A DNA stretch of 54,792 nucleotides from SAR202 cluster bacterium (lineage in GTDB: Bacteria; Chloroflexota; Dehalococcoidia; Lucifugimonadales; UBA826). The stretch lies in assembly GCA_009392815.1 (NCBI GenBank), contig VFFS01000060.1, forward strand, positions 1 through 54,792. Reading direction: 5' to 3'. Position 1 is the first letter of the stretch, and every line of letters begins with the position of its first letter. Positions 7,598-12,231 of the stretch are shown one piece after another. A program made the translations under genes and the position numbers. The notes beneath the pieces were generated by a model, which saw nothing but the letters and a program-made list of their open reading frames with translations, was not told the origin of the DNA and did no database searches.

Positions 7598-7942
7598 TTA
7601 ACTTTCTAGGTCAATCCTCATTCCCTCGTTAATATGATCTTCGGATTTTTCGCCTTGTACGAGATGCTTCTCGATCACTCCCTCTACATTTTCGGAATTG
7701 ACCACGTACCACGTAGCTTCAGAATCTGGCCCGTATACGATCATCGAACATTCCTGCATGTCACATAATCTGTGCTGACTCGTGCAACCGGCACTTGAGA
7801 CATAAACACTGCTTCTCAACCCAAGTTTAGACAATGTCTGAATGACCCTCTCCTTAACCTCCGCACCTCCTTTATTCCCACAATGTGCTCCATCATCTCT
7901 TTCCACATCGCAAACCATGATATGACTTTTGAAAGTAGGCAT
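7598..7942 (-). CDS. Thioredoxin-like (2Fe-2S) ferredoxin-type protein
   Basis: Small protein of 114 residues resembling the thioredoxin-fold [2Fe-2S] ferredoxins. The order is IMVCDVERDDGAHC, a helix, a second strand ending SSAGC, and then C-terminal VYGPDSEATWYVV. Cysteines fall at 11, 21, 53, 60 and 65 counting from the ATG at 7942. In typical members the third and fourth ligands are a GC-x3-C; here the spacing after GC is six residues, with a further cysteine five on, so the ligand set is unclear. The frame is open to 7987, but the ATG at 7942 has GGAGGG nine bases upstream and starts at the domain edge. Electron carrier role is inferred. Confidence 0.7.
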   Translation of the reverse strand: MPTFKSHIMVCDVERDDGAHCGNKGGAEVKERVIQTLSKLGLRSSVYVSSAGCTSQHRLCDMQECSMIVYGPDSEATWYVVNSENVEGVIEKHLVQGEKSEDHINEGMRIDLES

Positions 7943-8107
7943 AGGACTAAACCCTCCAACATTGATGTTATCCTCAAACAAACACAAACAATGTCCGCAT
8001 TCTAACAGCGCATGAGATGCAACTGCACGGTAATATATGCACCGATTTATGATGTGTTGGTGTGGAATATCGGATTTAGTTTCAGCAACATAAAGAGAGG
8101 TTCTCCT

Positions 8108-8872
8108 ATGACATCCCCATCAGGCAGACTCGCAGGTAAAGTAGCTATGGTTACCGGAGCTAGCTCAGGAATTGGAAAAGCATGTATAGAAAGATTTAGC
8201 GCCGAAAACGCAACTGTCATAGCTGTAGATATTGCTAAGCCCGTGACGGAGGGCCTCATGGGGCCACTCTCATCCTACGCCTGCGACGTGACCAACAGCG
8301 ATTCTATTAAGGAAGTTATTAATAACATTTCCAGTGAGTACGGTGGCCTCCATATTGTAGTCAATAGCGCCGGGGTTAGTGCACGTAATGCGCTATCCGA
8401 TACCACTGATATTGAACGAATATGGGACCGGGTCATAGAGGTTAATTTAAAAGGTACCTTCCTAACATCAATGCACTCAGTTCCTGAGATAGAAAAATCT
8501 GGAGGTGGGGCCATAATTAACTTGGCATCTACAATGGGAATCGTCGGATATCCCACCGGCCTCCGAAACGGGTACAGTGCCTACCCGCCATCAAAAGGAG
8601 GAGTAGTTCAGTTCACAAAAACTCTTGCCGTCGACCTAGCTGATCGGGGAATAAGAGTGAATTGCCTATGCCCGGGATTTGTGGAAACGAGCCTGACTGA
8701 ATCGTTGACGAGTGATAATGAAACAAATAATTATCTAAAAGGCCTCCATCCTATGGGAAGACTTGGAAGACCAGATGAGATAGCTAACGCCGCACTGTTT
8801 TTAGCCTCTGATGAATCATCATTTATAACCGGATCTTCACTCGTTATTGACGGTGGATATACAGCCCAGTAG
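8108..8872 (+). CDS. SDR-family oxidoreductase
   Basis: Classical short-chain dehydrogenase/reductase, 254 residues, NAD(P)-dependent. Visible motifs are the Rossmann TGASSGIG, the NSAG strand motif, the catalytic serine in INLAST, the YxxxK in AYPPSK, and PGFVET after the active site; it ends with the usual SSFITGSSLVIDGGYTAQ. VDIA at the end of beta-2 suggests NAD(H) rather than NADP(H). The frame is open further upstream (to 8012), but the ATG at 8108 matches the family N terminus (GRLAGKVAMVTG) and has an AGAGAGG-like motif upstream. Substrate not determinable. Confidence 0.88.
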   Translation: MTSPSGRLAGKVAMVTGASSGIGKACIERFSAENATVIAVDIAKPVTEGLMGPLSSYACDVTNSDSIKEVINNISSEYGGLHIVVNSAGVSARNALSDTTDIERIWDRVIEVNLKGTFLTSMHSVPEIEKSGGGAIINLASTMGIVGYPTGLRNGYSAYPPSKGGVVQFTKTLAVDLADRGIRVNCLCPGFVETSLTESLTSDNETNNYLKGLHPMGRLGRPDEIANAALFLASDESSFITGSSLVIDGGYTAQ

Positions 8873-8889
8873 AAATCATAAATGTGGTT

Positions 8890-9636
8890 TTAAACAGTTA
8901 AATTAAAGGTTCTAACTCTACTTTTGTATACCTCTTTGTGTATTACCTGAAGTGCTTTTTGATTGGGACTATCTACTGTCAGAAACCTGGATGAAATCTT
9001 ATCTTCCAGAGTCTGCAAGGACTTACATCTTTTCAAAAACCCGTTCAAAATATGTTTGTCCCCACCTAAAAATATTTTTGAGATATCATTTTTATGTGGC
9101 TGCAGCAAATTTTGAGTAACAGTACAAGTCTTATCGTAAAGTTCCCTTATCAATCTTTCACGACTTCTCTCAAATCGCCTCTGAGATGATCCCCCGGCTC
9201 TGTGGCGGTTTTTTACATGGCGACCTTCAGTTTTAGTAGCGATGAGTTCTTCACCATTAAGTACAGCAACAGCATATCTGCCAAGTCTCAGCAATATAAC
9301 AGCGATCGTACGGGACTCAAGAAAAATATCTTCTAACAGCAGCGCGTCTTGCCCTTCCATGATGGCATCCATAGGAATGGGAAAACAGGGTTCAACAACT
9401 TCAAAGTTAGCTTCTCTCCTGAACACAACGTAGCCATTTTCCGATTGTCCAAGTTGACTTAAAAGAGGAGTAAAAGCAGGTCCTGCTAATAGAGATGTTG
9501 CTGAATCCTCGGCCACCGACCCCGACGTTAAATAAACTGTTTTGTCGGTCCATGATTCAGAATCCATCCTCTCAAGGTGAGAGAAAAGAACATCCTTATA
9601 TAAATATCGGTCATCTATTTGAGTAAGTTCGATCAC
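8890..9636 (-). CDS. Vms1/VLRF1-type peptidyl-tRNA hydrolase (eRF1-like release factor)
   Basis: Probable bacterial member of the VLRF1 group, the family of yeast Vms1/human ANKZF1, which cleaves peptidyl-tRNA on stalled large ribosomal subunits. The evidence is the segment at residues 118-160: LGRYAVAVLNGEEL, then TKTEGRHVKNRHRAGGSSQ, then RRFERSRERL. The GGSSQ loop (148-152) puts a glutamine (Q152) where eRF1 has GGQ and Vms1 its catalytic glutamine, surrounded by basic residues suited to rRNA/tRNA contact. The C-terminal third is helical and then strand-rich (KIFLGGDKHILNGFL), as in the eRF1 domain-2 fold. GTG start, 14 bases after the alpha/beta hydrolase stop, so probably co-transcribed with it. 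Assignment is by motif recognition only. Confidence 0.7.
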   Translation of the reverse strand: MIELTQIDDRYLYKDVLFSHLERMDSESWTDKTVYLTSGSVAEDSATSLLAGPAFTPLLSQLGQSENGYVVFRREANFEVVEPCFPIPMDAIMEGQDALLLEDIFLESRTIAVILLRLGRYAVAVLNGEELIATKTEGRHVKNRHRAGGSSQRRFERSRERLIRELYDKTCTVTQNLLQPHKNDISKIFLGGDKHILNGFLKRCKSLQTLEDKISSRFLTVDSPNQKALQVIHKEVYKSRVRTFNLTV

Positions 9637-9650
9637 AATGCTTACTCACT

Positions 9651-11630
9651 TCAAGAGCCGACAATGTCGTCATATCTGAAGATAGCCTTTTCGATTATCT
9701 CCTGAACATCTTCCTCCAATATATATCTTTCTGAAACAAGTTCCGACACTAAATCCCTAACCTTGGATATATATTCGTCTCTGGATTCATATAACTTTTC
9801 TATTGAGGGTCTAGGATCCCCTGATATGTCACCCTGTTCTTTCGTAGTAGGAAGTGGGATAGTCCACCCGGCCAACCCTCCAGTTATCCCAATCAATAAT
9901 TCCTCGTTCCCAACAGAGGCGTCCCTAGGATTCCAACCCGTATTTGTAGTTACAGGCACCGCCACATCAGGCAACCTAACACCAGCCACCTCATTAAACG
10001 TTTCGTCCACGTCTGAAACAAACGCGGGGTACTGAGCCATACGCTCAGCTGGCAATTTAATAGTCCGCCCCAAATGTTGTTCGTTCCCGTAATCAAGCCT
10101 CATGGGATTAAGAGCTTTGTCGGGAACTCTCACGCCGGGGACATTATCAAATCGGCCAAGAAGAGTATGCGACTCTACAGCTGTTCCATCAGAATGTCTC
10201 GGATGCCTACTTTCCGGAGGAGCTTCTCCTGTCTTAATCCATTCATCAATGTTATTCAGGCAAGCTTTCAATATAGGGGAATAATCAACCGCATTGAAAG
10301 GTAGATGACCTTTGATCAGATCAGATTCTCTTTTCACAACAGGAGGATACGTACCATGACCATGTTGAGTTCCAGCAAAATGGTATCTCCTGACGTTCGG
10401 ATGTTCAGGGGCATCTTTAGGACCCTCTAGATCAGTGTGAATCAAACCAGCATCTCCACGCCAGTATTCAGCGGAAGAATTTGTAAACATTATTTTGGGT
10501 ACGCTCTCTTGCCTTTCAGGTAAATCCAACAGCCCTTCATGCTTACCAGTTTCAGGATCTCGCTGTGGTAGGTCTGTGAATGGGAACAGTTCAGGCATGA
10601 TAAAGCAAACATCTTTGGAAGGTTGCCCAAATCTCAGATTAAACTCCCCTCTCATTCCACCTCCCACATGGGCTATTACTCCATCCATTGCCATATTCCC
10701 ATTTTCATCGGTGTTCATACCCGTATGGAGATACTGACGTAAGAAGCGTCCTGTTTGTGATACTCCGTAGGAAATGGCCACATCTAATTCCCCTGCGGAA
10801 GGATTCCCTTCAGAGGCAGTGCCATATTTCATAAACGAGGAAATATCCCTCATCGCTGCAAATCCCAAACCCACTACACGACTTCCCCTGGCTGTGTAAA
10901 CCAATTGATATATCCTGCCAAGCTCAAATCCATCCTTCATATACAAATGCGCCGGATCAGGCTCTATTTCACGATCCTCCACTCTAATGATCGACCATTT
11001 ATCTGAGGGAACCTCTTCAAAGGCACCATTCGGATGATCTCCGACCAAAAGCTTGGCATTCTCAGTATTCTCATAAACCGATGGATTCACAAGATGATAC
11101 CGATCGGCGAGAGGAAATATATTTCTATCCTCGTTCGCCTGATATTGATTTAGAACACGGCCTACCAACGGCTCACCACTCTCTAAGGCTGATGGAGCCT
11201 GTAAACCGATAAGACCTGGGATAGGTGGAACATCCGCTTGCCATCCACAAAAAACCACCGTATACCCCTCCCTCATCAAAAATCCATTCCCAGAGCTAAA
11301 TGATGTAGCAAGATGATTGGCCCTTTCAACATCATTGAACCTTGTGACAACGGTGCGATTTCCACGATTGACCACATCCAGCAACATAGTTCGCCTACCG
11401 GCCTTCGGGTCTGTAGGTTTTAACATAGAAAAATCTGCTGAAAATTCGACTTTACCACCAGAGTTTACAGGGGCTAAGGCCAAATCCGTTATTCCATTAT
11501 TCGCTTCATGTGATGGATCCACCTCAAAATATGCTTTCCCCTCCAAGTAGGTGTAGGAGCCCACATCTCCGAAAGACCTACCAAACTCGAATGGCGCACG
11601 GTGATTGATTTCTAATCTTGCAACTGACAT
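9651..11630 (-). CDS. Large alpha/beta hydrolase domain protein (Abhydrolase_10-like)
   Basis: Protein of 659 residues resembling the poorly characterised Abhydrolase_10 family. The nucleophile elbow is visible in the middle as SYGVSQTGRFLRQYL (GxSxxG), following GLGFAAMRDISSFMKYG, and a histidine-rich GTQHGHGTYPPV could supply the catalytic base. The N terminus (LEINHRAPFEFGRSFGDVGSYTYLEGKAYFEVDP) is typical of the family; no signal peptide is apparent. Substrate unknown; esters or lactones are guesses. The gene is upstream of, and 14 bases from, the VLRF1-type gene. Divergent from rpiB. Confidence 0.8.
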   Translation of the reverse strand: MSVARLEINHRAPFEFGRSFGDVGSYTYLEGKAYFEVDPSHEANNGITDLALAPVNSGGKVEFSADFSMLKPTDPKAGRRTMLLDVVNRGNRTVVTRFNDVERANHLATSFSSGNGFLMREGYTVVFCGWQADVPPIPGLIGLQAPSALESGEPLVGRVLNQYQANEDRNIFPLADRYHLVNPSVYENTENAKLLVGDHPNGAFEEVPSDKWSIIRVEDREIEPDPAHLYMKDGFELGRIYQLVYTARGSRVVGLGFAAMRDISSFMKYGTASEGNPSAGELDVAISYGVSQTGRFLRQYLHTGMNTDENGNMAMDGVIAHVGGGMRGEFNLRFGQPSKDVCFIMPELFPFTDLPQRDPETGKHEGLLDLPERQESVPKIMFTNSSAEYWRGDAGLIHTDLEGPKDAPEHPNVRRYHFAGTQHGHGTYPPVVKRESDLIKGHLPFNAVDYSPILKACLNNIDEWIKTGEAPPESRHPRHSDGTAVESHTLLGRFDNVPGVRVPDKALNPMRLDYGNEQHLGRTIKLPAERMAQYPAFVSDVDETFNEVAGVRLPDVAVPVTTNTGWNPRDASVGNEELLIGITGGLAGWTIPLPTTKEQGDISGDPRPSIEKLYESRDEYISKVRDLVSELVSERYILEEDVQEIIEKAIFRYDDIVGS

Positions 11631-11766: not shown

Positions 11767-12231
11767 TTGAGACAAAAAGTGAAAATTTCAGTAGCAGCAG
11801 ACCACAACGGATACGAGCTCAAGTCAGAGATTTCTTTGCTACTCAATGAACTTGGGCACCAGGTTGTTGACGTTGGGCCACATTCTCATGATCCCCTCGA
11901 TGATTATCCAGACTACGCCAAGCTCCTGGCAAAACATGTTTCTACAGGTGCTAGCCAAAGAGGCATAATGGTATGTGGAAGCGGAGTCGGAGCATCAGTA
12001 GCTGCAAACAAAGTGAAAGGTGTCAGGGCGGCTGTGTGTCATGACATTTATTCTGCTCATCAAGGGGTGGAACATGATGATATGAATGTTCTTTGCCTGG
12101 GATCTCGAATCGTTGGAAGTGAAGTAGCTAGAGAACTAGTCAAAGCGTTTACTGGAGCGGAGTACACGGGAGAAGAACGTCATCAGAGACGACTTGATAA
12201 AGTGTTAAAGATGGAGCAAGACTTCCAGTAG
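11767..12231 (+). CDS. rpiB: Ribose-5-phosphate isomerase B
   Basis: Interconverts ribose 5-phosphate and ribulose 5-phosphate in the pentose phosphate pathway; cytoplasmic. Family marks are AADHNGYELKSEI at the N terminus, DYPDYA, the catalytic cysteine in GIMVCGSGVGASVAANKV, and NVLCLGSRIVG. Length of 154 residues is normal. RpiB/LacAB proteins can also act on allose 6-phosphate or galactose 6-phosphate, but no such sugar operon is present. The start is TTG at 11767 or GTG at 11779; neither has a convincing Shine-Dalgarno motif, and family alignment (KISVAADH) favours either equally. Confidence 0.92.
   Translation: MRQKVKISVAADHNGYELKSEISLLLNELGHQVVDVGPHSHDPLDDYPDYAKLLAKHVSTGASQRGIMVCGSGVGASVAANKVKGVRAAVCHDIYSAHQGVEHDDMNVLCLGSRIVGSEVARELVKAFTGAEYTGEERHQRRLDKVLKMEQDFQ

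Follow-up and report, generated by a model that had tools for sequence, protein, structure and literature searches.

In yeast, Vms1 frees half-made proteins stuck on split ribosomes, and MutS2, the second protein of concern here, was first known as a DNA-repair paralog. When MutS2 splits a stalled ribosome, peptidyl-tRNA stays behind on the 50S subunit and is then tailed by RqcH (PMC10897456). How the chain leaves the split 50S subunit in bacteria was still counted among the unanswered questions in 2023 (PMC10897456). In 2024, bacterial ribosome-associated quality control (RQC) had no known termination factor dedicated to it (PMC11317155), and Pth has been shown to release the chain after alanine tailing (PMC11317155, PMC11633108). 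Here we analyze a gene, acVLRF1, on a 54,792-nucleotide stretch of DNA from a SAR202 cluster bacterium (contig VFFS01000060.1, hereafter the window), whose product belongs to the acVLRF-1 family that Burroughs and Aravind defined in 2019 together with its motif GGxSQ (PMC6514570). Since MutS2 is found in 97% of RqcH-containing genomes across bacteria and is missing from 87% of those without RqcH (PMC11633108), the lineage described here, which has the splitter and no tailing factor, is exceptional. We propose that acVLRF1 is probably an acVLRF-1 release factor that acts after MutS2 on the 50S-peptidyl-tRNA complex, hydrolyzing through Q152 and dispensing with RqcH-made alanine tails.

Identity and domain make-up of acVLRF1

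The open reading frame (ORF) that a preliminary description of the window had claimed for a Vms1/VLRF1-type hydrolase lies exactly where it was placed (Table 1). It is a real gene, because its changes against a 79%-identical copy (L002) are concentrated at third codon positions (44/18/100 differences by codon position) and mostly synonymous (85 synonymous and 50 non-synonymous codon changes), and because homologs occur in 38 of 60 related genomes sampled across the order; 33 of these 60 are of high quality (completeness of 90% or more, contamination of 5% or less). The record that holds the L002 copy (PAVD01000054.1) is titled Rhodospirillaceae, yet it agrees with the window in gene order and in protein identity (73-98%), and it is probably a mislabeled metagenome bin. 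In a genome of the same family, the frame that matches acVLRF1 (L014, G004:C51:19458-20174) contains an internal TAA, a possible sign of decay or of an assembly error. No relatives of acVLRF1 were detected in one viral-contig scan or in a phage collection, and a plasmid collection held one, in a large Nonomuraea record.

Computed profile comparisons place the protein in the VLRF1/eRF1 group, as the preliminary description had it: among the eRF1-type profiles of Pfam, PF18859 (acVLRF1) gives the best match (E 4.8e-27, 95.2 bits, cut-off 27.1), followed by baeRF10 (1.3e-12, 48.6 bits) and eRF1_2 (7.2e-9, 36.5 bits), and archaeal aRF1 aligns through the loop. The Vms1 part of the label did not hold, as the family is acVLRF-1 and not bVLRF-1, from which eukaryotic Vms1 derives (PMC6514570); all 38 aligned homologs match the acVLRF1 profile, while the bVLRF1 profile of Pfam finds no match in the window protein and matches only two of the 38 (best 1.5e-5). 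Against the NCBIfam model NF041024 (acVLRF1), the protein scores 101.4 bits, below the curated cut-off of 125, with only profile positions 61-204 matched and the N-terminal part of the model unmatched, and we therefore take it to be a somewhat divergent acVLRF-1 member. The low score fits a longer N-terminal part that would still resemble domain 1 of aRF1.

In the published view, acVLRF-1 proteins lost the stop-codon domain and carry a distinctive short extension (PMC6514570). When a profile built from this lineage is used, the alignment to archaeal aRF1 chains begins at residue 7 and is collinear with aRF1 domain 1, with a gap of about 20 residues at the position of the NIKS hairpin. When the extension is searched by itself, aRF1 is the top match across the whole PDB, at a level that is not significant (E 0.14); in a directed test, two fragments of aRF1 domain 1 reach 18.3 and 14.2 bits, compared with 8.8 for the best of 20,000 shuffles, and profile-profile comparison with aRF1 domain 1 gives P values from 2.5e-6 to 3.3e-5 at a probability of 72-77%. 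These results lead us to see the extension, with moderate confidence, as a domain 1 stripped of stop-codon reading. Neither eRF1_1 nor eRF1_3 has a Pfam match in the window protein, and a Pelota-like domain 3 is absent. By its computed make-up, acVLRF1 combines a GGSSQ-bearing domain 2 of eRF1 type with what is probably a trimmed domain 1 that does not read stop codons, and it has no GTPase-binding domain 3.

Co-occurrence and adjacency with mutS2 in genomes without RqcH

MutS2 is present in 42 of the 60 order genomes, among them the genome of the window, which encodes a full-length copy (C45:53746-56151, 708 bits, MutS_V and Smr domains). The computed co-occurrence of the two genes is close: MutS2 is present in 37/38 acVLRF1-positive and 5/22 acVLRF1-negative genomes (Fisher p 1e-9), in 23/23 and 1/10 when only high-quality genomes are counted, and in 20/21 and 3/19 with one genome per family, and the association persists within all three genome-size classes. 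In a 47-genome tree built from RF1 and RF2 (sequences collected with phmmer), acVLRF1 and MutS2 each require eight parsimony changes, and Pagel's dependent model is preferred over the independent one (likelihood ratio 26.9, p 2e-5), indicating correlated evolution; these association p-values are strong and not final, as the tree has several weak nodes and there is no patchy control gene for comparison.

The two genes are also neighbors elsewhere in the class. In G018 and G024, acVLRF1 directly precedes mutS2 with overlapping ends, and in G034, G243, G212, G133, G228 and G109, mutS2 directly precedes acVLRF1; all pairs are co-directional, and therefore likely operons. Two opposite gene orders imply that the pair formed or was reshuffled on more than one occasion and was then retained. 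Thus the earlier statement that no dedicated partner adjoins the gene is true of the window, where no translation factor lies beside acVLRF1, but misleading for the class. In G188, mutS2 and acVLRF1 point the same way as well but lie 281 nucleotides apart with a short ORF between them; acVLRF1 is N-terminally short there (L109, G188:C15, 6364-7139) and the intervening ORF spans 80 amino acids, so this may be a frameshifted or split acVLRF1.

Could the link to MutS2 be a matter of common lineage, of reduced genomes or of a DNA-related role, with acVLRF1 a stand-alone release factor for other stalls? Genomes that lack acVLRF1 tend to be small, the neighbors in the window are metabolic, and MutS2 was known first from its kinship to DNA-repair proteins, all of which would fit such a view. 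We nevertheless consider it improbable, since the association survives within each size class and on the tree, and since the two genes are found side by side in either order, in some cases with overlapping ends.

The preliminary description had singled out RqcH and Pth as factors to look for in the genome; Pth is present and RqcH absent. By computation, RqcH was found in none of the 60 order genomes, in a search that was positive in 10 of 14 control genomes, and in none of the class members sampled. The genomic association expected of an RQC factor, co-occurrence together with adjacency, is therefore found for MutS2 and not for RqcH. An anti-correlation of acVLRF1 and RqcH across the phylum (RqcH in 0/9 acVLRF1 carriers compared with 17/20 carriers of weak baeRF10-type matches) was not used, because it largely follows class boundaries. 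Among the other factors, RF1/RF2-type proteins occur in 33/33 and SmpB in 32/33 high-quality genomes, HflX in 19/21 genomes, and an ArfB-sized RF-1 match in one genome only (G033). Transfer-messenger RNA and SmpB were not found in the window's own assembly, which is 88% complete; as relatives have SmpB, no conclusion is drawn from this. One odd bin, G027, has no match to RF1/RF2, SmpB, MutS2 or acVLRF1 despite a stated completeness of 97%.

The GGSSQ loop and a proposed release mechanism

The loop quoted in the preliminary description, KNRHRAGGSSQRRFERSRE, is letter-perfect at residues 142-160, and Q152 is its sole glutamine. As GGxSQ is the published acVLRF-1 motif, the GGSSQ found at residues 148-152 is the expected signature. 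A gapless alignment sets GGSSQRRFER of the window protein against GGQSQRRYER of archaeal aRF1, with a serine (S150) at the position of the canonical GGQ glutamine and the candidate Q152 two residues further on; three relatives have both glutamines (GGQSQ). In our first alignment, G148, G149, S151, R154, R144 and K135 are invariant among the 38 homologs and Q152 is kept in 32. The glutamine is present in all close homologs and in every aligned homolog of the window's own clade; it is replaced in several distant homologs, some from further orders of the class (G133, G188, G228, G109, G172 and the second copy of G212) and some from the window's own order (G034, G021, G022 and G036). The loop is therefore conserved among close homologs, one of the conditions on which the preliminary description had staked its assignment; its view of a single catalytic glutamine as the hallmark of the group stands for these homologs but gives no family-wide rule, as several distant ones have lost Q152. 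The second copy of G212 (L112, G212:C48) is a very divergent, glutamine-less paralog with the loop GGRSE and no adjacent mutS2, and the same genome holds a glutamine-bearing copy that adjoins mutS2, as G243 also does.

As these genomes contain MutS2 and no RqcH, another finisher is needed, and acVLRF1, which is related to eRF1 but has neither decoding nor GTPase-binding parts, is a natural candidate. In the mechanism that we propose, MutS2 would split a stalled or collided ribosome, acVLRF1 would enter the empty A site of the resulting 50S-peptidyl-tRNA complex, and Q152 would hydrolyze the peptidyl-tRNA and release the chain without alanine tails made by RqcH. Binding to the 50S subunit, hydrolysis and action after MutS2 are steps that we infer, and catalysis, in the sense of glutamine-dependent release of the nascent chain, is a prediction from the loop. 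More tentatively, MutS2 and acVLRF1 might together form a complete RqcH-free RQC pathway, in which acVLRF1 would be a dedicated bacterial 50S nascent-chain release factor and a tailing-free functional counterpart of Vms1.

Several observations weigh against this mechanism. Q152 has given way to S, E or A, or is shifted, in the MutS2-linked relatives from G034, G133, G228, G109 and G188, and therefore either the glutamine is dispensable, hydrolysis there proceeding without need of it, or part of the family has a non-catalytic role. Five genomes contain MutS2 without acVLRF1, Pth is nearly everywhere and able to release chains alone, and the window's own genome has acVLRF1 and mutS2 on different contigs. 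As MutS2 first became known as a paralog from DNA repair, the link between the two genes could yet be DNA-related. Finally, AlphaFold2 run on a two-sequence input returned a confidence score (predicted local distance difference test) of 36, too low for structural comparison, and thus gave no usable model.

The loss of Q152 in MutS2-linked relatives, in which the GG, the S and the arginine-rich helix remain, bears most directly on a non-catalytic role, in which acVLRF1 would occupy the peptidyl-transferase center of stalled or split ribosomes, or aid MutS2 in splitting as Pelota or Balon act, and leave hydrolysis to Pth. Balon and most baeRF proteins, which are related to eRF1 and lack the glutamine, bind the A site (PMC10901736, PMC6514570), and Pth is found in all 33 high-quality genomes. 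We regard this role as unlikely for acVLRF1, which keeps Q152 in every homolog aligned from the window's clade, lacks the C-terminal domain common to Balon, Pelota and aRF1, and has no hibernation factor among its identified neighbors. There is less reason still to expect nuclease cleavage at the CCA end of the P-site tRNA, which would release the peptide with a tRNA fragment; such an activity was reported for ANKZF1 in vitro and taken up in later work (PMC6344382, PMC11317155), but it has been disputed for the VLRF clade on grounds of fold (PMC6514570), and no nuclease residue was identified in acVLRF1.

We thus retain release by acVLRF1 after splitting by MutS2 as the preferred explanation. 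Genomes that keep MutS2 without RqcH are an exception that needs explanation. The genetic coupling of a VLRF1 protein to MutS2 in these genomes supplies a concrete candidate and makes the question directly testable; in eukaryotes, ribosome splitting is similarly paired with Vms1. As a protein, acVLRF1 is a fresh member of a known family, and the novelty lies in its genomic context, which was found outside the window. Our literature search, which covered few subscription papers, found no paper tying VLRF1 proteins to MutS2, and this is not proof of novelty.

Surroundings of the gene and comparison with known systems

The genes around acVLRF1 in the window (Table 1) are metabolic and do not point to its function. 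The rpiB, Abhydrolase_10 and SDR genes recur around acVLRF1 across the family and order, except that Abhydrolase_10 is missing in several of these genomes, where the divergent rpiB adjoins acVLRF1 directly; the alpha/beta hydrolase was accordingly rejected as a functional partner. Its co-transcription with acVLRF1, as earlier suggested, is plausible from the short gap and shared strand, but the hydrolase is dispensable as a neighbor. Near the SDR gene, a frame with conserved synteny (7598-7987, minus strand) matches 2Fe-2S ferredoxin models weakly (7e-8) and no Pfam family. A recurrent neighbor cluster (c28, in L043, L047 and L051) was discarded: it is a shadow ORF that overlaps the SDR gene and can mislead automatic neighborhood calls.

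Table 1. Coordinates of acVLRF1, its parts and its neighbors in the window
Feature	Position	Strand	Description and basis
acVLRF1 gene	8890..9636	-	248 aa, GTG start, TAA stop; PF18859 (E 4.8e-27), purifying selection against L002
N-terminal extension, residues 1-90	9367..9636	-	Probable aRF1 domain 1 remnant without NIKS hairpin; collinearity, shuffles, profile-profile comparison
eRF1 domain-2-like (RNase H fold) putative catalytic domain, residues 109-241	8914..9312	-	Pfam match 109-241; aRF1 chains 3agk (3.9e-18) and 4af1 (6.3e-18)
GGSSQ loop tip, residues 148-152	9181..9195	-	Q152 candidate catalytic; conservation, collinear with aRF1 GGQSQRR
Abhydrolase_10 (PF20091), alpha/beta hydrolase	9651..11630	-	659 aa; directly upstream of acVLRF1, 14-nt gap; frequent, optional neighbor
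rpiB-like (ribose-5-phosphate isomerase B)	11767..12231	+	Divergent, conserved synteny; LacAB_rpiB 1.4e-52 in L002 ortholog
SDR dehydrogenase	8012..8872	+	Convergent, conserved synteny

Compared with known systems, the window protein is closest to the acVLRF-1 family as described, sharing a domain 2 with the GGxSQ loop and arginine-rich helix, a short N-terminal extension, the lack of domain 3 and a host in the Chloroflexota, but bacterial VLRF-1 was presented there as stand-alone and independent of RQC components (PMC6514570), whereas here it is tied to MutS2. Archaeal aRF1 (PDB 3agk, 4af1) is collinear with it over residues 7-184 or 7-217 and differs in possessing the GGQ glutamine, the NIKS hairpin and domain 3. 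Balon and the baeRF proteins are likewise bacterial eRF1 relatives, and Balon acts at the ribosomal A site; Balon, however, has three domains and no GGQ, an architecture not found in the 248-residue window protein with no domain 3 match, and the baeRF10 proteins of other Chloroflexota are encoded by frames of 360-510 codons and mostly co-occur with RqcH. Vms1 and ANKZF1 (eVLRF-1) belong to the same superfamily clade, have a glutamine that falls at the corresponding GxuQ position if one aligns the published motifs, and offer a precedent for the action on a split large subunit that we envisage for acVLRF1; the window protein differs in having no Rei1 zinc finger, ankyrin repeats or Cdc48-binding motif, which Vms1 is described to carry (PMC6514570), and its genome has no Rqc2/RqcH. 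The RQC system of B. subtilis (MutS2-RqcH-RqcP-Pth) employs the same splitter and therefore faces the same 50S-peptidyl-tRNA problem; in the lineage of the window, where RqcH is absent, acVLRF1 is the proposed finisher, and it would act without tailing.
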